Positions 3,884 to 27,817 of a stretch of 30,278 nt of DNA are shown here, one piece after another; within the stretch, counting starts at the first letter, position 1; each line of letters opens with the position of its first letter. Under the pieces are notes generated by a model. It was not told the DNA's origin. It was given only the letters and a program-made list of their open reading frames with translations, and did not search any database. Position numbers and translations under genes: made by a program. The DNA is from a virus, in the IMG/VR virus record IMGVR_UViG_3300025413_000086, positions 1-30,278 of that record; one strand, given 5' to 3'.

Positions 3884-4732
3884 ATGCCTCGTGGTGTTCC
3901 CGCTTCTGGTTTTCGTAAACCTCGCACTAAGAAGAATGCTGCTCCGGTTGTTCAAGCTCCGGTTGCAGTTGAAACTGATGCTGAAATCTTTCAGCGCATT
4001 ACCGAACGATTTGAAGTTCTTGAGCTCATGACTCAGGCCGCTACCAGCGGTGATGTCACCTCGCTCATTGTCTCGGGACCTGCTGGTCTCGGTAAGTCGT
4101 TCTCGGTTGAAGAAGTTCTTAATGACTGGGACCCTGAAGAACTCAACCACACCATTGTCAAGGGCTACATTCGTCCTCCCTCGCTCTATCGTCTGCTCTA
4201 TCAGCACCGTGAAGCCAATCAGGTTCTCGTGTTCGATGATGCTGACTCGATCTTCTTTGATGAAGTGTCTCTGTCTCTTCTTAAGGCCGCTTGTGACAGC
4301 AACAAGCATCGCCGGATCAGTTACATGACCGAAGGCACTCTCTTTGATGGCGAATCTGATATTCTACCTCGCGGTTTCGACTTCTATGGTAACATCATCT
4401 TCATTACCAATCTCGACTTTGATGCGATGATTGCCAAGGGCCATAAGCTTGCACCTCATCTTGGTGCTATGATTTCTCGGTCGCACTATATCGACCTGGC
4501 AATGAAGACCAAGCGTGATTATCTCATTCGGATCAAGCATGTGATCTCGAAGGGTATGCTCAAGAATGACGGTCTGTCTGAAAAGGCTCAGTCGGATATT
4601 CTCGCCTTTATCTTTGATAACCAGGATAAGATGCGTGAACTCTCGCTCCGTATGGTTCGGAAGGTTGCCGACATCCGCCGCAAGGATAATCCCAACTGGA
4701 CTAAAATCGCAAGGATTACTTGTTGCCATTAA
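3884..4732 (+). CDS. AAA-family ATPase
   Basis: This 282-residue protein has a low-complexity N-terminal tail (PRGVPASGFRKPRTKKNAAP plus an Ala/Val/Pro run), then a P-loop ATPase core: Walker A GPAGLGKS near residues 65-72 and Walker B LVFDDAD near residues 114-120. Downstream, NIIFITNLDFD has the position and ending of a sensor 1 strand, and SLRMVRKVADIRR is an Arg-rich C-terminal segment. Short single-core AAA ATPases of this form occur in large myoviruses; substrate and partner are unknown. It has its own promoter P6 and is followed at once by P7, so it is an independent unit. Confidence 0.88.
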   Translation: MPRGVPASGFRKPRTKKNAAPVVQAPVAVETDAEIFQRITERFEVLELMTQAATSGDVTSLIVSGPAGLGKSFSVEEVLNDWDPEELNHTIVKGYIRPPSLYRLLYQHREANQVLVFDDADSIFFDEVSLSLLKAACDSNKHRRISYMTEGTLFDGESDILPRGFDFYGNIIFITNLDFDAMIAKGHKLAPHLGAMISRSHYIDLAMKTKRDYLIRIKHVISKGMLKNDGLSEKAQSDILAFIFDNQDKMRELSLRMVRKVADIRRKDNPNWTKIARITCCH

Positions 4733-11543: not shown

Positions 11544-11769
11544 ATTGCAACAGGGACCTAAAAAGATTGTCAATGTTAACTATATCTGTAAAGAATGTGA
11601 GTTTTTAAAAACTGAGTACTGGGTTGAATATCCAGATGGAGAGCGAGATTCAGGAACCAATGCAGATTGTCATGCATTCACTCCACCAAAAAATATCTCT
11701 CCTTATTATAACACTTCACGTATGACTCCAGATTGGTGTCCGTATATTGAAAGAGTTCGTGATGTCTGA
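11527..11769 (+). CDS. Cys-containing hypothetical protein
   Basis: This 80-residue protein starts at ATG 11527, which overlaps the MazG-like gene by 17 nt behind AAGGAAG. It carries CKEC near residue 21, then DCHAF and WCPYIE, a CxxC...C...C spacing that could bind zinc. Tyr and Pro are abundant (YWVEYPDGERDSG, PPKNISPYYNTSRMTPDW). No known family is recognised. The overlap suggests coupling to the upstream gene. Confidence 0.68.
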   Translation: MLKHAKLQQGPKKIVNVNYICKECEFLKTEYWVEYPDGERDSGTNADCHAFTPPKNISPYYNTSRMTPDWCPYIERVRDV

Positions 11770-11944
11770 AATCAGCGTTGATGGACAAAAATTTCCAGTC
11801 CAACTTGGCAATGTTATCATGAGTGCATTAAATGCACTACCAGAAGAAGAATATGCAAACGGTAGAACTGCGGCATACTGGCATATTATGTCAGTTTTAG
11901 ATCGCCATTTAGTTAGAAATCACAATGACACTAATCCATCGTAA
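11762..11944 (+). CDS. Small hypothetical protein
   Basis: This 60-residue protein (MSEISVDGQKFPVQLGNVIM followed by SALNALPEEEYANGRTAAYW) is predicted mostly helical after a short strand. It begins 8 nt before the end of the previous gene and overlaps the start of the macro-domain gene by 20 nt. The tight overlaps indicate an ordered, coupled operon. No function is recognised. Confidence 0.65.
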   Translation: MSEISVDGQKFPVQLGNVIMSALNALPEEEYANGRTAAYWHIMSVLDRHLVRNHNDTNPS

Positions 11945-12425
11945 AGGTAATCTAATTGATATGGCCGAACAAGGTTATTTTGACATTTTAGTTCACGGCT
12001 GCAACTGTCAGAATACAATGGGGTCTGGTATTGCTAAGGAGATTCGTGCTCGGTATCCACTAGCATATACAGCTGATACCAATTTTATGCGACAGATGCC
12101 ACCGGTGTGTAAGTTAGGTATGTGGAGCAATCACAATACAGACGGACATGGTTCGGTCTTTTATGATGTTTCTCCTTTCATTATCATAAACGCCTACACG
12201 CAGGTCAACTATCTACCTCGTGGTGTGGATCATTTTGAATATGAATCCTTCGGTTTGATCTTACGTAAGCTAGCAGCCGTGTATCCTGGGAAACGATTTG
12301 GATTCCCATACATCGGGATGGGCCTTGCTGGTGGCGATTCTAAGCGCATCTTAGCGATGCTAGAATCATTTGCGGTGAATATTACATCAACTGGTGGTTC
12401 TGCAACTTTGGTAGAATTTGGTTGA
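11925..12425 (+). CDS. Macro-domain (ADP-ribose-binding) protein
   Basis: This 166-residue protein has macro-domain motifs: DILVHGCNCQNTMGSGIAKE (the ADP-ribose-binding GCN and GSGIA loops), a YP.A..AD segment, and FGFPYIGMGLAGGDSKRILA near the C-terminus, matching the IG-GLAGG loop of Appr-1''-p-processing enzymes. Such proteins bind ADP-ribose and can remove it from proteins or dephosphorylate ADP-ribose-1''-phosphate. It lies between NadM-Nudix and NadV, which suggests work on ADP-ribose products of NAD+ cleavage or on ADP-ribosylated targets. Its TGA lies inside the -35 of the nadV promoter. Confidence 0.92.
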   Translation: MTLIHRKGNLIDMAEQGYFDILVHGCNCQNTMGSGIAKEIRARYPLAYTADTNFMRQMPPVCKLGMWSNHNTDGHGSVFYDVSPFIIINAYTQVNYLPRGVDHFEYESFGLILRKLAAVYPGKRFGFPYIGMGLAGGDSKRILAMLESFAVNITSTGGSATLVEFG

Positions 12426-12450
12426 CATTTTTATAAGATTGGTATAGACT
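12422..12450 (+). promoter_or_regulatory. Promoter P11 (TTGACA-17-TAGACT) of nadV
   Basis: The -35 is at 12422-12427, containing the macro gene's stop codon, and the -10 is at 12445-12450. Transcription should start near 12457, giving a leader of about 50 nt. Confidence 0.88.
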
Positions 12451-12456
12451 AAAATT

Positions 12457-12508
12457 AACGGCAAGGTGATAGACACCAACGCATCTAAATTTTAAGGAGC
12501 TTAAAATG
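12457..12508 (+). promoter_or_regulatory. Structured nadV leader that encloses the Shine-Dalgarno
   Basis: After the inferred start site there is a hairpin GGTG-ATAGA-CACC (12465-12477), whose loop TAGA can pair with TCTA at 12484-12487 (H-type pseudoknot geometry). Next, ATTTTAAG (12489-12496) pairs perfectly with CTTAAAAT (12500-12507), so AAGGAG lies in the stem and its 3-nt loop and the ATG touches the stem. Pairings are seen in the sequence; regulation is inferred. Confidence 0.5.
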
Positions 12509-13939
12509 ATCAATTATAATCCCATTTTAAATAGTGATTCATATAAATTTTCGCAATGGAATCAGTACCCAGAAGGTACCGAGTACATCTACAGCTACAT
12601 TGAAAGCCGTGGTGGTAAGTTCGACGAGACTGTATTCTTCGGTCTCCAGGCGTTCATCAAGGAATACCTGACTGATCCCGTCACAATGGATATGATTGAT
12701 GAGGCTGAAGCTATCATCACTGCTCATGGTGAGCCCTTCAATCGTGAAGGGTGGGAATATATCCTCCGTGAACACAACGGTTACTTGCCAGTGAAGATCA
12801 ATGCAGTTCCTGAAGGTACTGTGGTTCCCGTCAAGAACATTCTCACTTCGATTATCAATACAGATCCAAAGTGCTACTGGTTGACTTCGTTCCTCGAGAC
12901 TGCTCTTCTTCGTTCGGTCTGGTATCCTACAACTGTGGCTACTAACAGCCGTGAAATTAAGAAGGTAATTCTTGATGCTCTTGAGCGTACTGGTACTTCT
13001 GAAGATATCGCTTTTAAGCTTCATGACTTTGGCGCTCGTGGTGTTAGTTCTCTTGAGTCTGCTGGTATCGGGGGCGCGGCTCACCTGGTTAATTTCATGG
13101 GAACCGACACTGTGGAAGCTCTTGTTTTTGCTCGTCGGTATTACAATGCTGATATGGCTGGTTTCAGCGTTCCTGCTATGGAACACAGCACTGTAACCAG
13201 CTGGGGTCGTGAGAACGAGGTTGCCTCTTATCGCAACATGGTCAAGAAGAATGGTAAACCAGGCGGAATCGTCTCGGCGGTATCTGACAGCTATGATATC
13301 TTCAATGCCTGTAAGCTCTGGGGTACTGAACTCAAGCAGGACATCATCGACTCGGGTGCTACTCTGGTCGTTCGTCCTGACAGTGGTGATCCGGCGGAAG
13401 TCGTTCTTCGTTGTCTGATTATTCTCGATCAGTACTTCGGTAGCACCGTCAATGAAAAGGGATACAAGGTTCTGAACAACGTTCGTGTTCTTCAGGGTGA
13501 CGGTATCACGATTGACTCGATCAAGGAAATCCTGCACTGGGCCATTAAGAAGGGTTTTAGTGCTGACAACCTGGTCTTCGGTCAGGGTGGTGCTCTGCTT
13601 CAGATTGTTAACCGTGATGACCAGAAGTTTGCCATGAAGTGTTCGGCCGCTCTTGTTGATGGTACCTGGGTCGATGTATTCAAGGACCCTATTACTGACA
13701 AGGGTAAGCAGAGCAAGAAGGGCCGTCTCAAGCTGAAGAAGTACAATGTACGATATGCTACTATGGGTCCAGGTAATAATGTAATTTGCCCTGAATCGGA
13801 TCAAGTATCTTATCACACTGTTACAGAACATGACGAAGGTTATAGTGATGTCACGGATATTCTTGAAACTGTGTTTGAGAACGGAAAGATCGTCAAGGAA
13901 TACACCTTTGACGAAGTTCGGGAAAATGCAAAAATTTAA
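12506..13939 (+). CDS. nadV: Nicotinamide phosphoribosyltransferase (NadV/NAMPT)
   Basis: This 477-residue protein is close to the usual NAMPT length. Family landmarks are SDSYKFSQWNQYPEGTEYIY, HDFGARGVSSLESAGIGGAA (active-site loop with the HDFG.RG pattern), VVRPDSGDP (phosphoribosyl-binding) and GQGGALLQIVNRDDQKFAMK. The enzyme forms NMN from nicotinamide and phosphoribosyl pyrophosphate; NadM at 8867 then makes NAD+. Strong codon bias suggests high expression. It has its own promoter P11 and a structured leader. NadV is a common phage auxiliary gene and, with NadM, is the minimum of the NAD+ reconstitution route used against NAD+-consuming defences. Confidence 0.97.
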   Translation: MINYNPILNSDSYKFSQWNQYPEGTEYIYSYIESRGGKFDETVFFGLQAFIKEYLTDPVTMDMIDEAEAIITAHGEPFNREGWEYILREHNGYLPVKINAVPEGTVVPVKNILTSIINTDPKCYWLTSFLETALLRSVWYPTTVATNSREIKKVILDALERTGTSEDIAFKLHDFGARGVSSLESAGIGGAAHLVNFMGTDTVEALVFARRYYNADMAGFSVPAMEHSTVTSWGRENEVASYRNMVKKNGKPGGIVSAVSDSYDIFNACKLWGTELKQDIIDSGATLVVRPDSGDPAEVVLRCLIILDQYFGSTVNEKGYKVLNNVRVLQGDGITIDSIKEILHWAIKKGFSADNLVFGQGGALLQIVNRDDQKFAMKCSAALVDGTWVDVFKDPITDKGKQSKKGRLKLKKYNVRYATMGPGNNVICPESDQVSYHTVTEHDEGYSDVTDILETVFENGKIVKEYTFDEVRENAKI

Positions 13940-14009
13940 AAATATTTTTGTGTAATTTTGTTTCAACCAAGTTTTCTTGTATATATAGTTTACTAACTGA
14001 CATTATCGG

Positions 14010-14038
14010 TTGACATTTTATGTGGATTGGTATAGTCT
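14010..14038 (+). promoter_or_regulatory. Promoter P12 (TTGACA-17-TAGTCT), first of two ahead of the tRNA array
   Basis: The -35 is at 14010-14015 and the -10 TAGTCT at 14033-14038. The leader ATATATGGAATGCAGATTCAC resembles the mRNA leaders, yet no gene follows before P13. I see no terminator, so it should add to transcription of the tRNA array. Confidence 0.85.
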
Positions 14039-14104
14039 AAGAATATATGGAATGCAGATTCACCCTCGGGCCGAAAAACTTTCCAAACAAATTTATTTTT
14101 GGTG

Positions 14105-14133
14105 TTGACATTTTTCTTCGGATATGTTAGACT
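14105..14133 (+). promoter_or_regulatory. Promoter P13 (TTGACA-17-TAGACT), second tRNA-array promoter
   Basis: The -35 is at 14105-14110 and the -10 at 14128-14133. The following ~250 nt hold hairpins and the first tRNAs. A 13-codon frame from ATG 14147 (METNPSLTSLNRD) is too short to call. Confidence 0.87.
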
Positions 14134-14184
14134 AAGAATATAGGGAATGGAAACAAACCCTTCTTTGACATCGTTGAATAGAGA

Positions 14185-14348
14185 TTAAGAGGACTCATGG
14201 TTAGCTTTCGGGTTTACCATGAGTCCTACTTAAGACTTTTTAGAAGAAGACTGATCTTAGGCTGACCTAAGATGGTAAAAACGCAGGTTCAGCCTTCTTC
14301 TAAGAAGTTTTAATGTTGCCATAAGCTCGGATGTACAGTAATGGCAAC
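14185..14348 (+). ncRNA. Three consecutive structured RNA elements at the head of the tRNA array
   Basis: Element 1 (14185-14233) has TTAAG+AGGACTCATGGT pairing with ACCATGAGTCCT-A-CTTAA, 17 bp with one bulged A. Element 2 (14236-14307) has a 14-bp outer stem, CTTTTTAGAAGAAG with CTTCTTCTAAGAAG, enclosing the hairpin ATCTTAGG-CTGA-CCTAAGAT. Element 3 (14315-14348) has GTTGCCAT pairing with ATGGCAAC. None has a T-arm, CCA end or open frame. They could be processing signals, small RNAs or degenerate tRNAs; the structures are clear but the function is unknown. Confidence 0.55.
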
Positions 14349-14383
14349 TGATGGGTGTGGAAACATATTCATCTCTAGTTTAT

Positions 14384-14458
14384 CTGGGTGAGATAGCAAG
14401 TGCTAAACGGCGGTTTGGAGCCATCGGATCGGGGGAGCGTTACCTCCCACCCAGACCA
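14384..14458 (+). tRNA. tRNA-Pro(TGG), variant T-loop
   Basis: The 7-bp acceptor CTGGGTG/CACCCAG, A73 and encoded CCA are clear. The D-arm is TAGC-AAGT-GCTA. The anticodon loop TTTGGAG gives TGG. The T-stem GGGGG/CCTCC closes an unusual loop, AGCGTTA, instead of TTCRANY. C1 at the 5' end agrees with Pro identity. The anticodon stem GGCGG/CCATC has one mismatch. Confidence 0.8.
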
Positions 14459-14464
14459 GTTTAT

Positions 14465-14575
14465 GTATAGTGAAATCCTCTGGTGAGGGAAGCAGATAAA
14501 TCCACAGTACTGGTTAATAATACAGTGCGATAATGGTTTTGCAATGGGTCGGTTCGATTCCGGCACTATACACCA
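14465..14575 (+). tRNA. tRNA-like gene with enlarged middle, anticodon unresolved
   Basis: GTATAGT pairs with ACTATAC, followed by A and CCA, and the T-arm GTCGG-TTCGATT-CCGGC is canonical. Between them lie about 76 nt instead of the usual 40-60. Possible arms are CCTC/GAGG and TACTG/CAGTG. No unambiguous 7-nt anticodon loop is visible; loops containing TTG or TAA were considered. It may be a tRNA with an insertion or a tRNA-like RNA. Confidence 0.6.
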
Positions 14576-14580
14576 GTTTA

Positions 14581-14630
14581 AGGTTCCTTTCAGCATCAAT
14601 TGTTTTGCTTATAACAACCAAGCGGAACCT
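14581..14630 (+). ncRNA. Inter-tRNA structured element, R family copy 1
   Basis: AGGTTCC pairs with GGAACCT (14624-14630) and is flanked by GTTTA on the left and GTAAAATT on the right. The interior starts TTTCAGCATC and ends AAGCG. It shares this layout with the elements at 15686 and 15764. There is no T-arm and no CCA. It sits between a tRNA end and tRNA-Arg(TCT). Confidence 0.5.
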
Positions 14631-14639
14631 GTAAAATTT

Positions 14640-14715
14640 GCGCCTATAGCTCAACTGGATAGAGTTCGGGTCTTCTAAACCTGCGGTCGGGGTTCGAGTC
14701 CTCGTAGGCGCGCCA
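14640..14715 (+). tRNA. tRNA-Arg(TCT)
   Basis: GCGCCTA pairs with TAGGCGC; G73 and CCA are encoded. The D-arm is canonical, with AACTGGATA typical of Arg tRNAs. The anticodon loop is CTTCTAA and the T-loop TTCGAGT. Class I, 76 nt. Confidence 0.95.
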
Positions 14716-14719
14716 GATA

Positions 14720-14820
14720 TTAGGAGTTAGTAGCAATCGGTGGCTAAACTGTGATGGTTTAGATATCGTGGACTAATCACCCACAGCCGAGTACATAATA
14801 TCATTTAGATAGGCTCCTAA
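14720..14820 (+). ncRNA. 101-nt structured RNA closed by a 7-bp stem, no T-arm or CCA
   Basis: TTAGGAG (14720-14726) pairs with CTCCTAA (14814-14820). Inside, CTAAAC-TGTGAT-GGTTTAG forms a hairpin and GTGAT can pair with ATCAC. It lies 4 nt after a tRNA CCA and 10 nt before promoter P14. It is tRNA-sized and tRNA-spaced but not a tRNA. The function is unknown. Confidence 0.5.
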
Positions 14821-14830
14821 TTCATTTTTG

Positions 14831-14859
14831 TTGACATTTATTCTCACTTGGTATAGAGT
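14831..14859 (+). promoter_or_regulatory. Promoter P14 (TTGACA-17-TAGAGT), leaderless arrangement
   Basis: The -35 is at 14831-14836 and the -10 at 14854-14859. The ATG of the next gene begins 6 nt after the -10 (14866), so the mRNA should have no leader. Confidence 0.82.
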
Positions 14860-14865
14860 TGAAAA

Positions 14866-15396
14866 ATGGAAACATTACAAAAACATCTAATCGAACGAGG
14901 TATGGATATTACAAAATATCCAATCGCTTACGATCCTGATGAAGGTATCATTACTTTCTTCTTGTTTAATGGCACTGGTCAGCTTGTTGGTTATCAAAAA
15001 TATAATTTTATGCAACCATCAAAACAGAAAAAGAATGATCCTAAGTCTGGTAGATATTATACGTATCTACCTAAAGAAACTGACGGTGTGTTTGGTCTAG
15101 ATGTTCTTGATCCTACCGACAGGACAATTTATATAGTCGAAGGTGTGTTTAAGGCGGCAGTATTGCACCGACTAGGTTACAATGCTATTGCTGTTTTGAC
15201 TTCTACACCAAAACGACTGCGACCTTGGTTTAAAATTTTACGTCAGACATGGAATCTGGTGGCGATTGGTGATAACGATGAGGCAGGCCGAAAGCTTGTT
15301 AATATCGTGAAACAAGGTTTTCAATCTCCTACTGATCTAGATGAAATGTCAGATGAAGATATACACAGTTTACTCCGCGGGTGCAGTACACCGTAA
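14866..15396 (+). CDS. Toprim-domain protein (primase/topoisomerase-type fragment)
   Basis: This 176-residue protein has a short N-terminal region (MDITKYPIAYDPDEGIITFF) followed by a Toprim fold: IYIVEGVFKAAVLHRLGYNA carries the catalytic Glu strand-turn, and LVAIGDNDEAG carries the DxD motif. It lacks a zinc finger, a primase RNAP-like domain and a helicase domain, so it is much shorter than DnaG or a T7-type primase. It resembles stand-alone Toprim proteins of phages, whose role may be primase-like or nuclease-like. Its ATG coincides with the predicted transcription start of P14 (leaderless). It is inserted in the tRNA array. Confidence 0.82.
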   Translation: METLQKHLIERGMDITKYPIAYDPDEGIITFFLFNGTGQLVGYQKYNFMQPSKQKKNDPKSGRYYTYLPKETDGVFGLDVLDPTDRTIYIVEGVFKAAVLHRLGYNAIAVLTSTPKRLRPWFKILRQTWNLVAIGDNDEAGRKLVNIVKQGFQSPTDLDEMSDEDIHSLLRGCSTP

Positions 15397-15409
15397 GACG
15401 GCAGAGGTA

Positions 15410-15501
15410 GAGGAACGGCAGAGGTCTCAACAGCCTATGTGCTGCAACATATAGACACCTATTGCAGTAGGGTTGATTCGGTGCAAGTCCGGACGTTCCT
15501 C
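15410..15501 (+). tRNA. Degenerate tRNA-like gene, possible Cys(GCA) loop, no CCA
   Basis: GAGGAACG pairs perfectly with CGTTCCTC (8 bp). CTATGTG-CTGCAA-CATATAG makes an anticodon-like hairpin containing GCA. CCTA/TAGG makes a variable-arm-like hairpin, and TTCGG-TGCAAGT-CCGGA resembles a T-arm with T55 changed to G. CCA is not encoded. A canonical Cys tRNA is present elsewhere (23611), so this may be a decayed or specialised copy. Confidence 0.5.
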
Positions 15502-15513
15502 GTTTATTTTAAT

Positions 15514-15589
15514 GGCCTGTTAGCTCAATCGGGAGAGCACTGCACTGTCCATGCAGAGGCAAGGGGATCGAAACCCCTACAGGCCGCCA
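15514..15589 (+). tRNA. tRNA-Asp(GTC)
   Basis: GGCCTGT/ACAGGCC acceptor, G73, CCA. Anticodon arm CTGCA-CTGTCCA-TGCAG. T-loop ATCGAAA closed by GGGG/CCCC. 76 nt, class I; G73 fits Asp. Confidence 0.95.
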
Positions 15590-15596
15590 GTTTCCG

Positions 15597-15658
15597 CTGG
15601 GTTCGATTCCCAGGGTATATAGACGGTCTTCGTCAAGGTTCGACTCCTTGATATATCG
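15597..15658 (+). other. tRNA fragments: an isolated T-arm and a 45-nt mini-tRNA-like unit
   Basis: CTGGG-TTCGATT-CCCAG (15597-15613) is a perfect T-arm with no partner arms. Directly after it, GGTATAT (15614-15620) pairs with ATATATC (15651-15657) around a small hairpin (GACG/CGTC) and a second perfect T-arm, CAAGG-TTCGACT-CCTTG. The unit therefore has acceptor and T-arm but no D- or anticodon arm. These are either decayed tRNAs or minihelix RNAs. Confidence 0.6.
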
Positions 15659-15685
15659 AATAAGCATGGTGGTGGACATAATTTT

Positions 15686-15748
15686 AGAGTTGTTACAGCA
15701 AACCTTTACGCTTAAACAATGGATGTCTTAGCGGACAAAAACAACTCT
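15686..15748 (+). ncRNA. Inter-tRNA structured element, R family copy 2
   Basis: AGAGTTGTT pairs with AACAACTCT; the flanks AATTTTA and TAGAATT continue the helix past a TG bulge to about 15 bp. The interior has ACAGCAAAC near the 5' side and AGCGGA near the 3' side, as in the sister copies. No open frame, T-arm or CCA. Confidence 0.55.
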
Positions 15749-15763
15749 GTAGAATTCAGTTTT

Positions 15764-15820
15764 AGGATCCTTACCGCAACTCAACAAACTTTTTATGTTA
15801 AAAAAGCCAAAGCGGATCCT
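15764..15820 (+). ncRNA. Inter-tRNA structured element, R family copy 3
   Basis: AGGATCC pairs with GGATCCT; the flanks AGTTTTA and TAGAATT extend the helix past a TG bulge. The interior starts TTACCGCAAC and ends CCAAAGC. A further hairpin (15830-15871, GGGTA/TACCC with AAGTGG/CC-GCTT inside) follows it. Confidence 0.55.
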
Positions 15821-15899
15821 GTAGAATTAGGGTAAGTGGAAGGAATCCCGCTTATTAAACGATGGATACCCAAAAGTTATTCGCGCCCTTACAAGTTTA

Positions 15900-16000
15900 G
15901 GAACGGTTCAGCAAACAACCTTATTGGTAGCTCATTGGTAGAGCATCTGACTTCAACTCAGACTGTAGCAGGTTCAAATCCTGTCCAAAACAAACGTTCC
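15900..16000 (+). tRNA. tRNA core with anticodon TCA (reads UGA), nested in an outer stem
   Basis: The core spans 15921-15991: D-arm GCTC-ATTGGTA-GAGC, a perfect anticodon arm TCTGA-CTTCAAC-TCAGA (anticodon TCA at 15953-15955) and T-arm GCAGG-TTCAAAT-CCTGT. Its acceptor TTATTGG/CCAAAAC pairs at only 5 of 7 positions. It is enclosed by a 6-bp helix, GGAACG (15900-15905) with CGTTCC (15995-16000); the 5' joint GTTCAGCAAAC resembles the R-family elements. TCA would decode UGA, as in opal-suppressor or Trp(UCA) tRNAs. Identity and charging are uncertain. Confidence 0.6.
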
Positions 16001-16095
16001 AGTTATTTGATACAATGGAGTAATTACCCGGCGTATCAGTCTCAAGAGGCATAAGATGCGGAGTAATTAACCGATTTTCTTATTAAATATCTCTT

Positions 16096-16168
16096 GCTTC
16101 GTTCGTCTAATGGATAGGACGGCTTCCTGCTCCGGAAAGCAAATACTGGTTCGAATCCAGTACGAAGG
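16096..16168 (+). tRNA. tRNA-Arg, probable CCG anticodon, CCA not encoded
   Basis: CTTCGT pairs with ACGAAG (1-72 would be G-G). The D-arm GTCT-AATGGATA-GGAC is Arg-like and the T-arm ACTGG-TTCGAAT-CCAGT is canonical. The anticodon region contains CTCCGGA, the loop of Arg(CCG), but the stem is irregular (GCTT/AAGC with an enlarged loop). After the acceptor the sequence reads TTACGG, so CCA must be added enzymatically. Confidence 0.65.
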
Positions 16169-16173
16169 TTACG

Positions 16174-16263
16174 GACTTTTTTGATGAGTGCATTACCCTA
16201 CCCAAAGGGTGAACGACAGTGGTTGGAAGGATCGTTCGATCTAGTGCATTCATCTAAACAGTC
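16174..16263 (+). ncRNA. Three-way-junction RNA element between tRNA genes
   Basis: The outer helix is GATGAGTGCA (16183-16192) with TGCATTCATC (16245-16254), one G-T pair, prolonged outward by TTT/AAA and GACT/AGTC. Inside are two hairpins: ACCCT/AGGGT and GAACGA/TCGTTC. The result is a cloverleaf lacking one arm. There is no T-arm, CCA or frame. It ends 2 nt before the split tRNA gene. Confidence 0.55.
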
Positions 16264-16308
16264 TTGCCGGATTAGCTCAGTGGTAGAGCAACCGCCTTTC
16301 TAAAATTT

Positions 16309-16375
16309 CTGGTTTGTATAAATATTATGGTTCACGGGATTGCCGTCCCCAACCATTCTAGAATACAAACAGGAG
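16309..16375 (+). promoter_or_regulatory. Nested hairpin before the endonuclease gene
   Basis: CTGGTTTGTAT pairs with ATACAAACAG (one bulged G). Inside, ATGGTT pairs with AACCAT and ACGG with CCGT. The helix ends against the AGGAG of the gene at 16384, so it could limit its translation. Confidence 0.55.
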
Positions 16376-16383
16376 TTTCCAGC

Positions 16384-17025
16384 ATGGAACTATTTATTTG
16401 CAAGTTTTGCAATTCTGAACGTAAAAATAAGAACTCATGGTTAAATCATGAAAGACTTTGCCCTAAGAATTTAAATCGTAATTATACTCCAGGGATGCTT
16501 GGAAAGAAAGGCAAAGATAATCAATATACAAAAGCAAAAAAGTTAGGATTACCAGTACCCGAAAGTCCTCAAAAAGGTAAACCAGGGGTTAAACCTGCGC
16601 CAAAATCTCCAGAAGCTTTGGAAAAATTAAGTAGATTAGCTAAAGAAAGAGGTCTCGGCGGGGTTACTCAATCAAGATGGATTGAATATAAAGGTAAAAT
16701 TTTAGGTAGTTCTTATGAGCTTTCTGTAGCTAAAAGTTTAGATGAAAATAAAGTTAAATGGGATACTTGTAAAAGAATTAATTATATCGACCCTGAAGGG
16801 AAGAAAAGAACTTATACTCCAGACTTTTATCTTGAAGAATATAATGTTTATCTTGACCCTAAAAATGATTATCTAATAAATAATCCAAATCCAAGTTTAG
16901 GATTTTCAGACCAAGAAAAAATAAATCTAGTTAAAAAACAAAACAATATTAAGATTTTGATTCTTAATAAGAAACAACTAGATTGGAATACCATTAAAGA
17001 ACTGATTAATGCTGAGGTCGGATAG
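16384..17025 (+). CDS. Homing-type endonuclease, Vsr/PD-(D/E)XK-like with N-terminal zinc finger
   Basis: This 213-residue protein has an N-terminal CCHC finger (CKFCNSERKNKNSWLNHERL then C), a Lys/Pro-rich linker, and a C-terminal nuclease-like domain: KILGSSYELSVAKSLDENKV, then RTYTPDFYLEEYNVYLDPKN. The SSYE...TPDFYL...YLDPK layout fits PD-(D/E)XK nucleases related to Vsr and to homing enzymes such as I-Ssp6803I. AGGAG 8 nt before ATG 16384 sets the start. Codons are unusually A/T-rich compared with neighbours, indicating transfer. It interrupts a tRNA gene, and its last 15 nt overlap another tRNA. DNA target and activity are inferred. Confidence 0.82.
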   Translation: MELFICKFCNSERKNKNSWLNHERLCPKNLNRNYTPGMLGKKGKDNQYTKAKKLGLPVPESPQKGKPGVKPAPKSPEALEKLSRLAKERGLGGVTQSRWIEYKGKILGSSYELSVAKSLDENKVKWDTCKRINYIDPEGKKRTYTPDFYLEEYNVYLDPKNDYLINNPNPSLGFSDQEKINLVKKQNNIKILILNKKQLDWNTIKELINAEVG

Positions 17026-17092
17026 CGGCGATTCCACTGCCTTTGTAACGCAGTATTCCACATCGTGGGTTCGAGTCCCACTCTCAGCACCA
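17011..17092 (+). tRNA. tRNA-Thr(TGT), atypical, overlapping the endonuclease stop
   Basis: GCTGAGG/TCTCAGC acceptor, A73, CCA; T-arm GTGGG-TTCGAGT-CCCAC. The anticodon region ACTGC-CTTTGTAAC-GCAGT contains TGT; read with a 7-nt loop it leaves a C-C mismatch. The D-arm is short (GGA/TCC) and the variable region about 10 nt. Its first 15 nt are the end of the endonuclease frame. Confidence 0.75.
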
Positions 17093-17135
17093 TTTAAGCG
17101 GTAGGTCGTGAGTTCAAACCCCACATCCGGCACCA

Positions 17136-17351
17136 GTTTTACCCGTCAATGACAACCAAGACGTTAAATCGTTGTTAGGTTTAGCGATAGTTCATCCTTA
17201 ATAACTATCCGGTGCCGTCTGCTACCGTAATGCTAGACAGTGCCAATCCTACTATAACGGATTTAAAATCCCATGTGGGTGCGCTTGTGTCCGAGCGTTG
17301 GCTAAGCCAAAAACATACGTAATGGTAAATAAGTGGTAGGCAGTAATTTTT
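17136..17351 (+). other. 216-nt gap with structured segments, no gene recognised
   Basis: Contains ACAAC/GTTGT, a perfect hairpin GATAGTT/AACTATC (17186-17209), CGCT/AGCG, and the inverted repeat TTGGCTAAGCCAA. A segment CGGATTTAAAATCC looks like a Leu(TAA) anticodon arm, but no matching acceptor or T-arm was found. Confidence 0.45.
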
Positions 17352-17425
17352 GGGGACGTAAGCTAACGGGAAACTGGCGCCTTTGCAAGGCGCACTTGAG
17401 GGTTCGATTCCCTCCGTCTCCACCA
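17352..17425 (+). tRNA. tRNA-Ala(TGC)
   Basis: GGGGACG/CGTCTCC acceptor, A73, CCA. Perfect anticodon arm GCGCC-TTTGCAA-GGCGC and T-arm GAGGG-TTCGATT-CCCTC. 74 nt, class I. Confidence 0.93.
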
Positions 17426-17426
17426 T

Positions 17427-17502
17427 GGATCTCTGGCGTAGCTGGTGTGCGCGCCCGCCTGAAGAGCGGGAGGTCGGGGTTCGATTCCTCGGGGATCCAC
17501 CA
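17427..17502 (+). tRNA. tRNA-Phe(GAA)
   Basis: GGATCTC/GGGATCC acceptor with one G-T pair, A73, CCA. Anticodon arm CCCGC-CTGAAGA-GCGGG. Only 1 nt separates it from tRNA-Ala. 76 nt. Confidence 0.94.
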
Positions 17503-17510
17503 AAGTTTAT

Positions 17511-17595
17511 GGGGATATGGCGTAATTGGTAGCCGCGGCAGACTTAGAATCTGTTGTTGAGAGACGTGGGGGTTCGAGTCCCTCTATCCCCACCA
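17511..17595 (+). tRNA. tRNA-Leu(TAG), class II
   Basis: GGGGATA/TATCCCC acceptor, A73, CCA. Anticodon arm CAGA-CTTAGAA-TCTG, then a long variable region as expected for Leu. T-loop TTCGAGT. 85 nt. Confidence 0.93.
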
Positions 17596-17596
17596 T

Positions 17597-17672
17597 GCCC
17601 GTGTACGCAAATGGCAAAGCGGCTTGATTTAGAATCAAGTGTCTGGGAGTTCAAGTCTCCCCACGGGTACCA
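17597..17672 (+). tRNA. tRNA with anticodon TAG but class I form
   Basis: GCCCGTG/CACGGGT acceptor (G1-T72), A73, CCA. Perfect anticodon arm CTTGA-TTTAGAA-TCAAG gives TAG, a Leu anticodon, yet the variable loop is only TGTCT. T-arm GGGAG-TTCAAGT-CTCCC. It follows the class II Leu(TAG) gene by 1 nt. Amino-acid identity is doubtful. Confidence 0.85.
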
Positions 17673-17676
17673 AATT

Positions 17677-17747
17677 ATCCGACTTTCTAGATACGTCGGA
17701 GAGACCTGGACCAGACTAACAGAGGGGAACGCTGGTTAATATCGGAT
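17677..17747 (+). other. Structured spacer between tRNAs
   Basis: ATCCGA (17677-17682) pairs with TCGGAT (17742-17747). Inside, ACCAG pairs with CTGGT, and an alternative hairpin CCGAC/GTCGG overlaps the outer helix. Downstream is the palindrome CATTGATCAATG. No frame. Confidence 0.4.
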
Positions 17748-17797
17748 TGCTTACCTCATTGATCAATGGGCTGAACCGATAAGGTGTATAGAATAAT

Positions 17798-17890
17798 GGG
17801 TGTGTTGCAGATATGGCGTGTTCTGCTCCGGACTGTAAATCCGGTCCCATGTGGTAAACAATGTAGGTTCGACTCCTACCACACCCACCA
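17798..17890 (+). tRNA. tRNA-Tyr(GTA)
   Basis: GGGTGTG/CACACCC acceptor, A73, CCA. Anticodon arm CCGGA-CTGTAAA-TCCGG, long variable arm (class II), T-arm GTAGG-TTCGACT-CCTAC. 93 nt. Confidence 0.93.
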
Positions 17891-17942
17891 AAATTTGTTC
17901 TCCTTATAAATAGTAATAAAAACTATTTGCGGGGAGAATATA

Positions 17943-18326
17943 ATGCTATTACATGCAATTCGTCTAGTAAGACACCATGTTGATAAACTTAAGAGAGCAC
18001 ATAAAAGAAGTCCAGCATGGTCAAAGGTTGAGCATGCATATAAAGCAAGTAATCCTTCTTGTGCATGTTGTGGTTCACAAAAGAGACTTCAAGTCCATCA
18101 TTGTAAACCATTCCATTTACATCCAGAATTAGAATTAGATCCTTCTAATCTTATTACGTTGTGTATGGACTTAGATTGCCATCTTTTAGTTGGTCACGGT
18201 GATAACTTTAAAGACTATAATCCAGACGTACGTGAAGACTCTGCTAGAGTCCGAAACAGTTCTGATCTTAAAGCCACACTAAAGGTTGTTGCTGCAGAAG
18301 CTAAAGCAAAACGACTTTCACAATAA
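17943..18326 (+). CDS. HNH endonuclease
   Basis: This 127-residue protein has a basic N-terminal helix (IRLVRHHVDKLKRAHKRS), then the HNH fold: CACCGSQKRLQVHHCKPFHL with a CxxC zinc knuckle and the HH catalytic strand, LELDPSNLITLCMDLDCHLL with the central Asn and second CxxxxC knuckle, and VGHGDNFKDYN with the final His. This set is typical of small phage HNH proteins. GGGGAGAATATA precedes the ATG. It lies between tRNA genes, as mobile nucleases often do. It could be a free-standing homing enzyme or a packaging-related nuclease; the position favours the former. Confidence 0.9.
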   Translation: MLLHAIRLVRHHVDKLKRAHKRSPAWSKVEHAYKASNPSCACCGSQKRLQVHHCKPFHLHPELELDPSNLITLCMDLDCHLLVGHGDNFKDYNPDVREDSARVRNSSDLKATLKVVAAEAKAKRLSQ

Positions 18327-18896
18327 TTAATGTCGGTGAAAGTCTATTGCAGTACTTATGCCGATTATAAATTTCTTTTGATCTAAACCAAGATCAAATT
18401 GCACATTGTTGTGCTTTGGTGGAATCCATGCAATAAAGATTCCATATCTTGGTTTAGTGTCATAATATAGTGACTGAGTGATAGTTAATCTATCTGTTGG
18501 TGTGATGTTAAATTCACCAACATATGTTTGCTGATGTTTTGAAATGATGACATCAGTACCAAGATAAAATAGATTATTCAGTGCTATTTGTGTTGGAACT
18601 TCTGCTACAAGTCCTAGATCTTTATCATAAGACAGTTTAAGAGACACTTTAAGTTTATCTGAATGTGTAATTGAATGCTTGATACCCCAAGAGGTATCGT
18701 CTTTGTCAAGTTCTGTATTCTTAAAGATACCAAATCTTATTTCTTTGGTATCAGTTCCCATTTCGGGTTGCAATGTATATACTGGAACAACCTCGGCGTC
18801 TGATCCAACTCCTGGTCTATCTGCACTTATTTGTTCTTGTGCTGATGCAGTAGTACTACTAAGTAAAAGGCCTATTGCATAAAGAATGGTTTTCAT
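18327..18896 (-). CDS. Exported beta-barrel-like outer-membrane protein
   Basis: This 189-residue protein has an N-terminal signal peptide (TILYAIGLLLSSTTASAQ, cleavage likely after ASA), then ISADRPGVGSDAEVVPVYTL and QPEMGTDTKEIRFGIFKNTE, close to the DRPG...VP...Q.E.G start of transporter-like outer-membrane barrel proteins. The remainder alternates polar and aromatic residues (LTITQSLYYDTKPRYGIFIA) as beta strands do. Its ATG overlaps the stop of the upstream reverse-strand gene (ATGA), so the two are coupled. A phage-encoded surface protein could change adsorption or permeability; that is inference. Confidence 0.7.
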   Translation of the reverse strand: MKTILYAIGLLLSSTTASAQEQISADRPGVGSDAEVVPVYTLQPEMGTDTKEIRFGIFKNTELDKDDTSWGIKHSITHSDKLKVSLKLSYDKDLGLVAEVPTQIALNNLFYLGTDVIISKHQQTYVGEFNITPTDRLTITQSLYYDTKPRYGIFIAWIPPKHNNVQFDLGLDQKKFIIGISTAIDFHRH

Positions 18897-19216
18897 TTAG
18901 CTTTACTTTCAAGTAGAGAATGTAGATCGGCATGAATTTGCTTAAGTTCTTCAAACTCTTTCATAAGTGTTTCATGATCTTGTGATGCTCTTAGTTCTGT
19001 CTTACGGCTTTGAACATCTTGACCGACCATAATAACAGAAAGCAATACAAGTTGAAGGAATGTTTGTGCAATCCATGAGATTGTAGTGGCAGTACCTCCA
19101 TGTAATGCATCTGGTAGACTGATTAGTGCTAAAAGTGCAAAGGCATATGCACACCACATTGTTCCAACTACATTCGTAAGAAGAACGGCAAACTTGTCAT
19201 TGAATGTTTTTAGCAT
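18893..19216 (-). CDS. Two-TM membrane protein with cytoplasmic coiled coil
   Basis: This 107-residue protein has hydrophobic segments near residues 16-34 (VVGTMWCAYAFALLALISL) and 45-63 (TISWIAQTFLQLVLLSVIMV), then a charged helix with heptad-like spacing (ELRASQDHETLMKEFEELKQ). The order resembles the DUF1003-like small membrane proteins, which I cannot confirm. AAGGAAAG on the reverse strand precedes the ATG. It is co-transcribed with the outer-membrane-type protein, opposite to the tRNA array. Confidence 0.72.
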   Translation of the reverse strand: MLKTFNDKFAVLLTNVVGTMWCAYAFALLALISLPDALHGGTATTISWIAQTFLQLVLLSVIMVGQDVQSRKTELRASQDHETLMKEFEELKQIHADLHSLLESKAK

Positions 19217-19250
19217 ATTCTTTCCTTTTTAGTTTTATTTATAAGAAATT

Positions 19251-19324
19251 GCTTTGTTGGCGTAGAGGTAACGTATCTGGCTTCCAACCAGAGGTCACGG
19301 GTTCGATTCCCGTACAAAGCTCCA
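19251..19324 (+). tRNA. tRNA-Gly(TCC)
   Basis: GCTTTGT/ACAAAGC acceptor, T73, CCA. Anticodon arm TCTGG-CTTCCAA-CCAGA. T-arm ACGGG-TTCGATT-CCCGT. 74 nt. U73 is found in bacterial Gly tRNAs. Confidence 0.94.
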
Positions 19325-19327
19325 AGT

Positions 19328-19403
19328 TGCGCGGTGTTCTGAAACGGTATCATACTAGGCTCATAACCTAGAGTTGGGAGTTCGACTCTCCCCTGCGCCT
19401 CCA
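19328..19403 (+). tRNA. tRNA with CAT anticodon, initiator-like 1:72 mismatch
   Basis: Anticodon arm CTAGG-CTCATAA-CCTAG; T-arm GGGAG-TTCGACT-CTCCC; T73, CCA. Acceptor TGCGCGG/CTGCGCC has an unpaired T1-C72, a hallmark of bacterial initiator tRNAs. The three G-C pairs typical of an initiator anticodon stem are not complete (AGG/CCT). Elongator Met and Ile(CAT) remain possible. Confidence 0.85.
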
Positions 19404-19483
19404 ATCTGATGTGGATACAATGCGCTTTGTCGCTGTCGCAGTTCCATACATCGCCGCACAATACGTGAGTGCTGCATTTTAGG

Positions 19484-19512
19484 TTTACATTATTTCTCAC
19501 ATATGGTAGAAC
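19484..19512 (+). promoter_or_regulatory. Promoter P15 (TTTACA-17-TAGAAC), leaderless arrangement
   Basis: The -35 TTTACA is at 19484-19489 and the -10 TAGAAC at 19507-19512; the ATG begins 6 nt after the -10. Confidence 0.75.
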
Positions 19513-19518
19513 AATAAT

Positions 19519-20064
19519 ATGAAGAGCGTAATTGTTTATATCCACGGCTATGGTAGCGGACCTGATAGCAACACTGCTCAGGAACTCAAGAATGCATTTC
19601 CCACTGAAGACTTTATCTGTCCTCAGTTTGATCATTCTCAGGATCCTGACTTTATCAAAGCTCAGGTCGACGAACTTGCCAAACAACTCGCTACCTACAA
19701 TGATGTAATTGTGGTTGGCTCGAGTGCTGGTGGTTTTTGGGCTGATTATCTTGGTTGTGTCTATGGTTTCAAGACGGTTCTTGTAAATCCGTCTTTGTGT
19801 CCTGCGACCAACTTCCGCAAATACAATTTGCCAGAATCTCATTATGATAAATATGATGTCATGCAAAAATGGATTCAAAATCATGCTCGACATCACATGG
19901 TAGCTTTTGCCGGTGATCAGGATGATATTGTTCCGTTGGAACATGTAAAGACTCATTATAACAATCCTATTATGCTTGAAGGTGAAGGTCACAGGCTTAC
20001 TGATTTGACCCCAGTTCTTAAGATGGTTCAAAGTATGATTGGAAACATTCCGGAACACACTTAA
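19519..20064 (+). CDS. YqiA/UPF0227-like alpha/beta-hydrolase esterase
   Basis: This 181-residue protein has VIVYIHGYGSGPDSNTAQEL at the N-terminus (oxyanion loop), a nucleophile elbow VVGSSAGGFWADYLG (Ser in GSSAGG), the acid region AFAGDQDDIVPLEH, and the catalytic His in LEGEGHRLTDL. The short lid-free layout and length match YqiA-type esterases, which hydrolyse short acyl esters. The mRNA is predicted to start at or next to the ATG (leaderless). Its stop overlaps the next start (TAATG). A phage role could be modifying host acyl groups; the substrate is unknown. Confidence 0.87.
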   Translation: MKSVIVYIHGYGSGPDSNTAQELKNAFPTEDFICPQFDHSQDPDFIKAQVDELAKQLATYNDVIVVGSSAGGFWADYLGCVYGFKTVLVNPSLCPATNFRKYNLPESHYDKYDVMQKWIQNHARHHMVAFAGDQDDIVPLEHVKTHYNNPIMLEGEGHRLTDLTPVLKMVQSMIGNIPEHT

Positions 20065-24975: not shown

Positions 24976-25043
24976 GGGCATGTTAGGCAACCACCAACCA
25001 GATGGCGCCAGGTGTGCGGGTTCGAATCCCGTTATGTCCACCA
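24976..25043 (+). tRNA. Compact tRNA-like gene, anticodon unresolved
   Basis: GGGCATG/TATGTCC acceptor, A73, CCA, and T-arm GCGGG-TTCGAAT-CCCGT are good. The 33 nt between acceptor and T-arm contain CACC/GGTG and TGGCGCCA, but no standard D-arm or U33-bearing anticodon loop. 68 nt. Confidence 0.55.
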
Positions 25044-27623: not shown

Positions 27624-27817
27624 GGGCACGAATGCTAAAGAGGAATAGCGCCTTAAAGAAGGAAAGGTTGGGGTAACTCCCGGACCAAGACGAAAGTTGT
27701 ACACTGTCTTTTTGTCGGCTCGCGATGAATTCTTAACTGAAGTTACGGCCTGTGGTAATGCTCAGGTTCAAGGTTCTTGCCGGTTCGAATCCGGTTCGAA
27801 TCCGGTCGTGTCCACCA
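27624..27817 (+). tRNA. 194-nt tRNA-like gene with large insertion and duplicated T-arm
   Basis: GGGCACG (27624-27630) pairs with CGTGTCC (27807-27813), followed by A and CCA. A D-arm-like GCT/AGC hairpin follows the acceptor. The 3' end has two copies of TTCGAATCCGG in tandem, so either can form the T-arm. The ~110-nt middle contains several hairpins (for example TAACT/AGTTA and GAC-AAAG/CTTT-GTC). The anticodon was not determined. It may be an intron-bearing, decaying or specialised tRNA. Confidence 0.55.

Follow-up and report, generated by a model that had tools for sequence, protein, structure and literature searches.

Homing endonuclease genes (HEGs) spare their hosts because they reside in introns, inteins or gaps, or because the pieces of the gene that they split still function. 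All of these locations, split genes included, have been described for phage HEGs (PMC2988022, PMC10448857), and HEGs located in tRNA arrays, such as SegB, spread neighboring tRNA genes (PMC6409571, PMC13096335). In addition, HNH genes have been tied to tRNA diversity in cluster M mycobacteriophages (Pope et al. 2014, as summarized in PMC5966550). A search of PubMed Central, which covered Pope et al. 2014 only via PMC5966550, returned no report of an HEG accompanied by a replacement tRNA.

The closest precedent is the mobile ORFs of fungal mitochondria (PMC3630166), found in atp6 of Allomyces macrogynus and in atp6, atp9, cox2 and nad3 of Glomus, where the inserted endonuclease gene brings a divergent stand-in for the part that it cuts off, and the old part persists downstream. 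Their stand-in is a C-terminal piece that creates a hybrid protein gene, whereas the locus described here, in a phage, contains an additional, entire tRNA gene of the same isoacceptor. T4 SegB and other free-standing phage HEGs (PMC2988022, PMC13096335) resemble our HEG in being free-standing within a T4-type tRNA array; SegB, however, is a GIY-YIG enzyme with a tRNA intergenic region as its listed target, and anticodon splitting combined with a carried isoacceptor is not described for it. The intron-less mobE in nrdA of phage Aeh1 (PMC2988022) also splits an important gene whose function is kept, but there the protein pieces assemble, whereas here a second complete gene is supplied. The same type of target, the anticodon region of a tRNA gene, is attributed to an endonuclease for tRNA-fMet (Bonocora and Shub 2001, as cited in PMC3984707), although the home of that enzyme is, in the citing review, a self-splicing group I intron, and our locus is without an intron. 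Finally, the nuclease domain matches the profile of the T7 endonuclease I family (Pfam Phage_endo_I); unlike that family, the enzymes studied here add an N-terminal zinc finger and a NUMOD-like region, and sit in tRNA genes. We take the tRNA-fMet enzyme to be I-Ssp6803I, a PD-(D/E)XK endonuclease.

The locus belongs to a virus record from IMG/VR (30,278 nt), the whole of which we call the window and in which 33 tRNA genes are predicted. Its features are as follows.

16266..16298, + strand: 5' half of the resident tRNA (acceptor, D arm, 5' anticodon stem, loop bases CTT)
16299..17094, + strand: inserted cassette, 796 nt (from comparison with the intact loop CTTGTAA and junction enumeration)
16305..16375, + strand: RNA hairpin, its 3' arm holding the endonuclease ribosome-binding site (RBS) AGGAG (fold -23.7 kcal/mol, z -3.1)
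16317..16324, + strand: T4-type late promoter TATAAATA in the 5' arm of the hairpin (from the sequence)
16384..17025, + strand: homing-type endonuclease gene, 213 aa (from the family profile, alignment and AlphaFold model)
17011..17092, + strand: complete carried tRNA-Thr(UGU), anticodon at 17044-17046 (ARAGORN; Rfam, 45.6 bits)
17095..17135, + strand: 3' half of the resident tRNA (TAA, 3' anticodon stem, T arm, acceptor, CCA)

A preliminary description of this DNA had proposed a tRNA gene split within its anticodon loop, and both halves were indeed found at these positions and are homologous to intact tRNA-Thr(UGU) genes. The 5' half reads GCCGGAT TA GCTC AGTGGTA GAGC A ACCGC CTT (16266-16298) and the 3' half TAA GCGGT AGGTC GTGAG TTCAAAC CCCAC ATCCGGC ACCA (17095-17135). 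The perfect complementarity claimed for the halves holds for the acceptor (7/7 bp) and the anticodon stem (5/5 bp), but the T stem contains a single A52.C62 mismatch, owing to which the locus escaped our first automatic split-tRNA scan, and which is also present in an intact relative, L038. A search of viral contigs with the first 24 nt of the 5' half found 46 stretches, most of them intact tRNA-Thr(UGU) genes, so the halves are not a chance resemblance. The intact homologues have the anticodon loop CTTGTAA; that of L038 is identical to the 5' half over 33/33 nt and differs from the 3' half at two of 41 nt, both outside the loop. Judged by these tRNA homologues, the resident gene is a tRNA-Thr(UGU). 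The tRNA-Lys(UUU) that naive joining of the halves would produce (CTTTTAA) was ruled out as the resident, because the intact homologues are Thr(UGU). An assembly chimera or artefact is unlikely, since a separate IMG/VR contig of 8171 nt (L048) shows the same arrangement and is 100% identical to window positions 11738-19908.

The ends of the cassette are uncertain by 1-2 nt, and the resident anticodon base 35 was lost or changed. Its contents are one endonuclease ORF and one complete tRNA-Thr(UGU), different from the resident. The perfectly complementary halves and the anticodon loop, the classical intron position, would suit an unusual intron or a trans-joined tRNA, in which a working tRNA is made by ligation of the halves once the RNA of the 796-nt insert has been excised or skipped; moreover, in CkP1, AC4 and AsFcp_1, which have related endonucleases (see below), exact joining of the halves would give the correct tRNA-Met loop CTCATAA with the anticodon CAU. 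However, a permissive Rfam search of 16170-17250 (E<=10) found no group I or group II intron and no catalytic RNA, in agreement with the earlier remark that a group I core is lacking, and the search does work, since the real group I intron in the tRNA-Asn of phage contig L044 was recovered at 59.8 bits. In addition, when every junction of two resident ends was enumerated, none yielded UGU: loops of seven bases have UUU or UUC as their anticodon, and the other junctions give loops of the wrong size. As no ligation of the ends can give UGU, the split gene in the window is a broken gene, and an archaeal-type bulge-helix-bulge intron is unlikely for the same reason. A replacement tRNA, furthermore, is already there. 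Among the options left side by side in the preliminary description, disruption thus stands, whereas removal or joining in RNA is extremely unlikely at this locus. The cassette does not behave as an integrase-type tRNA-targeting element either: its only ORF is the endonuclease, and the resident tRNA is not restored.

The intron that served as the control is an observation in its own right. It lies at 4150-4348 (reverse strand) of L044, in the anticodon loop of a tRNA-Asn(GUU) gene, belongs to RF00028 and contains no ORF; in a 2014 review, every phage intron then known sat in protein genes (PMC3984707).

The encoded protein has a C2H2-like zinc finger at its N-terminus, followed by a NUMOD-like middle region and a PD-(D/E)XK nuclease of the T7 endonuclease I type. 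The family profile matched T7 endonuclease I structures in the PDB (E 3e-7), Pfam matches to Phage_endo_I and NUMOD3 were obtained for 12/23 and 3/23 family members, respectively, and the catalytic positions E112, D147, D158 and K160 are retained in the alignment. The AlphaFold model of the window endonuclease (pLDDT 83) had no Foldseek match below E 0.001, the best plausible ones being Vsr and AbaSI-like. The enzyme had been labeled Vsr/PD-(D/E)XK-like; the T7 endonuclease I profile bears out the second part of this label, and the first is fair at the level of the fold, where the Foldseek matches are weak. The combination of a nuclease with DNA-binding accessory motifs (the zinc finger, and NUMOD3 in some members) is that of a homing endonuclease. 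The cyanophage enzyme F-CphI, considered as a relative, was rejected, as it uses an Endo VII motif (PMC6083498).

Upstream of the ORF, the late promoter lies within a hairpin predicted to hide the RBS, an I-TevI type of regulation as judged by sequence and folding, which has been reported for segB, mobE and I-Tev genes (PMC2988022). The exact TATAAATA occurs upstream of 13/40 family members, against 0.93 expected from mononucleotide shuffling, and equivalents of the 16305-16375 hairpin were found in L060, L061 and L147. The enzyme is probably made late, from the TATAAATA promoter, while the hairpin would hide the RBS in early read-through RNA.

The complete Thr tRNA that had been noted across the endonuclease stop was called by both ARAGORN and Rfam, and shares its first 15 nt with the end of the ORF. 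It has the same isoacceptor identity as the resident with a greatly different sequence, and is the sole intact Thr(UGU) predicted in the window; a free-standing relative is present in phage contig L058 (85% identity). The gene has some oddities, namely a 31-39 C.C mismatch or a 9-nt loop, and a variable region of ~11 nt. The insert therefore contains a divergent copy of the very gene that it disrupts, Thr/Thr in this case and Leu, Met, Asn, Arg or Thr at other loci. Phage tRNA arrays are crowded, and two adjacent tRNA-Thr genes, with the endonuclease gene falling into the first and the second never having been in the insert, would produce a similar picture, particularly at loci without a resident 3' half (PhaxI, L107). 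In the window, in L030 and at several HNH-Leu loci, however, the inner tRNA is followed by the resident 3' half, and only one tRNA-Met exists in dinky, the relative of PhaxI with the empty site. The carried tRNA is positioned between the resident halves and hence arrived within the insert; because of this nesting we reject a tandem duplication, which is very improbable.

It is very likely, in our judgment, that an HEG cut the tRNA-Thr(UGU) gene and was inserted together with a replacement isoacceptor tRNA. The enzyme would cut the empty phage tRNA gene in the anticodon region, and during mixed infection the break would be repaired from the HEG-bearing phage, with the cassette copied in by recombination. 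Homing of this kind would destroy the resident tRNA-Thr(UGU), and the divergent carried tRNA-Thr(UGU), presumably not recognized by the enzyme, would be charged and used in its stead, so that the codon is still served. The divergent isoacceptor should also shield the carrier from its own enzyme. With a spare in place, the resident halves would be free to decay, as in PhaxI.

Relatives of the endonuclease were gathered from GenBank phages and viral contigs, and those with a profile score >100 were regarded as full-length. Most of these lie within tRNA arrays, the ORF end being followed within ~50 nt by a tRNA or an orphan 3' half, whereas short relatives without the N-terminal part were not near tRNAs. 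The family is hosted by genes for tRNA-Met, Asn, Arg and Thr; a complete tRNA of matching type often comes after the HEG, and the loci were found in three states. In the first, spanning three T4-like genera (CkP1, the AC4 group and AsFcp_1), the HEG sits at C34^A35 of tRNA-Met with intact halves and nothing carried; the carriage of a replacement is thus not obligatory. In the second, a complete isoacceptor is nested along with the HEG, as in the window (Thr/Thr) and in L073 (Asn/Asn; read by eye, the inner tRNA not being called by ARAGORN, with the resident 3' half found). In the third, the HEG and the isoacceptor are present and the resident 3' half is eroded: Met/Met in PhaxI, cp19, SP-9-14 and L068, Arg(UCU) in L107 and F25/IME341, and Asn/Asn in L070 and L082 (L068 and the F25/IME341 fragment were assigned by eye). 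The HEG stop is a conserved TAG/TAA at positions 8-10 of the carried tRNA in the tRNA-Met cases L064, L065, L068, L151 and L152.

Occupied and empty alleles of the same site are both present in this family. The tRNA-Met halves of CkP1 are identical to the uninterrupted gene of KMB20 (Karamvirus), with a clean insert exactly at C34^A35, and the AC4 group carries the HEG where Stupor and AB-Navy1 are empty with an intact tRNA. In Lazarusvirus, nine records contain the HEG and many close relatives have an intact tRNA-Met at the same place. In Kuttervirus, the site of the single intact tRNA-Met of dinky is occupied in PhaxI by a 5' remnant, the HEG and another, unlike tRNA-Met; one tRNA-Met(CAU) was exchanged for another, and the intact count stays at one. 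This count was obtained from matches to an anticodon-to-T-arm pattern in each genome: PhaxI and dinky have exactly one each, whereas AC4 and CkP1 lost theirs compared with Stupor and KMB20, respectively (AC4 and Stupor share a further match at an identical position, which probably does not represent a tRNA). An uninterrupted homologue in related phages, which the preliminary description had suggested looking for, thus exists in the sense that the same kinds of tRNA are intact at the empty sites of the family, but none is close to the window phage: no empty site was found in a close relative, nor any close DNA relative of the window region among GenBank phages.

F25 and PP01 have different units of an HEG plus tRNA-Arg(UCU) at the same spot. 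At 887-1632 of L158 and 2501-3240 of L153, the same place in two T4-like phages, alternative units of this kind were seen: segB (GIY-YIG) ends 3 nt before a tRNA-Arg(UCU) in the former, and the PD-(D/E)XK HEG overlaps a different tRNA-Arg(UCU) in the latter.

The tRNA-Met loci with nothing carried might be maintained in another way, in that the cut tRNA-Met of CkP1, the AC4 group, AsFcp_1 and PX29 could be rejoined as RNA without a ribozyme, for example by phage repair enzymes of the Pnkp/Rnl1 type. We assign this only a slim chance. In Angelvirus (AsFcp_4 and PX29), the split tRNA-Met halves are intact beside a frameshifted HEG, but the flanking DNA is just as identical. As the flanks are as well conserved, intact halves beside a frameshifted HEG are no proof of selection. 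If the tRNA-Met were rejoined, an HEG inserted in the anticodon would be a protein-spliced intron in a bacterial virus, and the window element would represent a later stage with a carried tRNA in place of repair.

Beside or just downstream of the HEG in L081, L085, L088, L100 and L108, we observed a conserved tRNA-Met(CAU)-like gene that ARAGORN missed, with no normal D arm and a long variable arm (TATCGGCT..CTCATAA..GAAACCGTAATYGGTYACA). D-armless tRNA-Arg(UCU)-like genes are present in L084 and L089.

Similar arrangements were found with unrelated endonucleases. An HNH gene from L029 led to 25 viral loci, at most of which the HEG lies between the 5' remnant of one tRNA-Leu and a complete tRNA-Leu(UAG) or (UAA) that differs from it, and the resident acceptor 3' strand lies beyond the inner tRNA-Leu in L163, L167, L174, L179, L181 and L182. 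These HNH-Leu loci, though many, may be one lineage, and in the phages Ursula and K6 no annotated tRNA-Leu follows the HNH relatives. With another HNH gene (L030/L187), a tRNA-Thr(UGU) is nested in a tRNA-Thr(UGU). At ~3918-3948 of L030 (reverse strand), an inverted copy (GCCTTGTAAGC / GCTTTACAAGGC) stands right after the broken anticodon arm of the tRNA-Thr and, as it adjoins that arm, the remnant can form a hairpin.

The resident was typed blind to the carried tRNA by matching each remnant against 817 tRNA 5' ends from other loci and taking the commonest isotype among the seven best matches. By this automated nearest-neighbour typing, the resident isotype equaled that of the carried tRNA in 23/25 loci, with two weak cases among the matches, L087 (remnant 158 nt upstream) and L069 (a three-way tie). 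As for the mismatches, that of L147 is an artefact, since its tRNA-Cys lies outside the insert, and Kuja (L064) has a 24-nt remnant, too short for the typing to settle. The loci were collapsed by family and isotype to eight lineages (window Thr, Ackermannviridae Met, Asn, L107 Arg, L069 Thr, Leu-UAG, Leu-UAA and L187 Thr); under the assumption that the lineages are independent, all eight matched in 12 of 40320 permutations (~3e-4). On these sequence comparisons, isoacceptor replacement is a recurring pattern across three HEG types and not an accident.

Such a match could also come from hitch-hiking, if the donor site of the HEG lay beside a resistant isoacceptor allele and shared recombination flanks brought the two along with no benefit. 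HEGs do co-convert tRNA genes that flank them, SegB being an example (PMC2988022, PMC6409571), and the specificity of the enzyme by itself could favour the company of an isoacceptor. On the other hand, the carried tRNA is the only intact Thr(UGU) that the window has left, the resident and inner tRNAs have diverged greatly, replacement is seen again in three HEG types, and PhaxI retains exactly one tRNA-Met. Hitch-hiking is therefore an unlikely account, and we favour insertion together with a replacement. HEGs would then have a further route by which to avoid harm, breaking a tRNA gene and supplying an equivalent spare, which looks like a natural counterpart of an engineered home-and-rescue gene drive and would have arisen in several unrelated endonuclease types. 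It would also offer a concrete route for swapping phage tRNA genes with foreign ones of equal specificity, and would account for many of the broken tRNA pieces in phage tRNA arrays.

The rest of the array in the window contains several further irregular elements. The ORF at 14866-15396 matches only positions 148-334 of the 435 of the phage primase family phrog_849, and is probably a primase fragment. An HNH endonuclease gene (17943-18326) immediately follows the tRNA-Tyr. At 15921-15992, ARAGORN called a tRNA-SeC with the anticodon UCA, which has only 72 nt and a poor acceptor stem, and may be a damaged gene or act as an opal suppressor. Finally, T arms without a complete tRNA lie at 14548-14572, 15597-15621, 15634-15658, 25016-25040 and 27779-27814; the one at 27779 is a partial tandem duplication, and such orphan T arms are perhaps remnants of older insertions.
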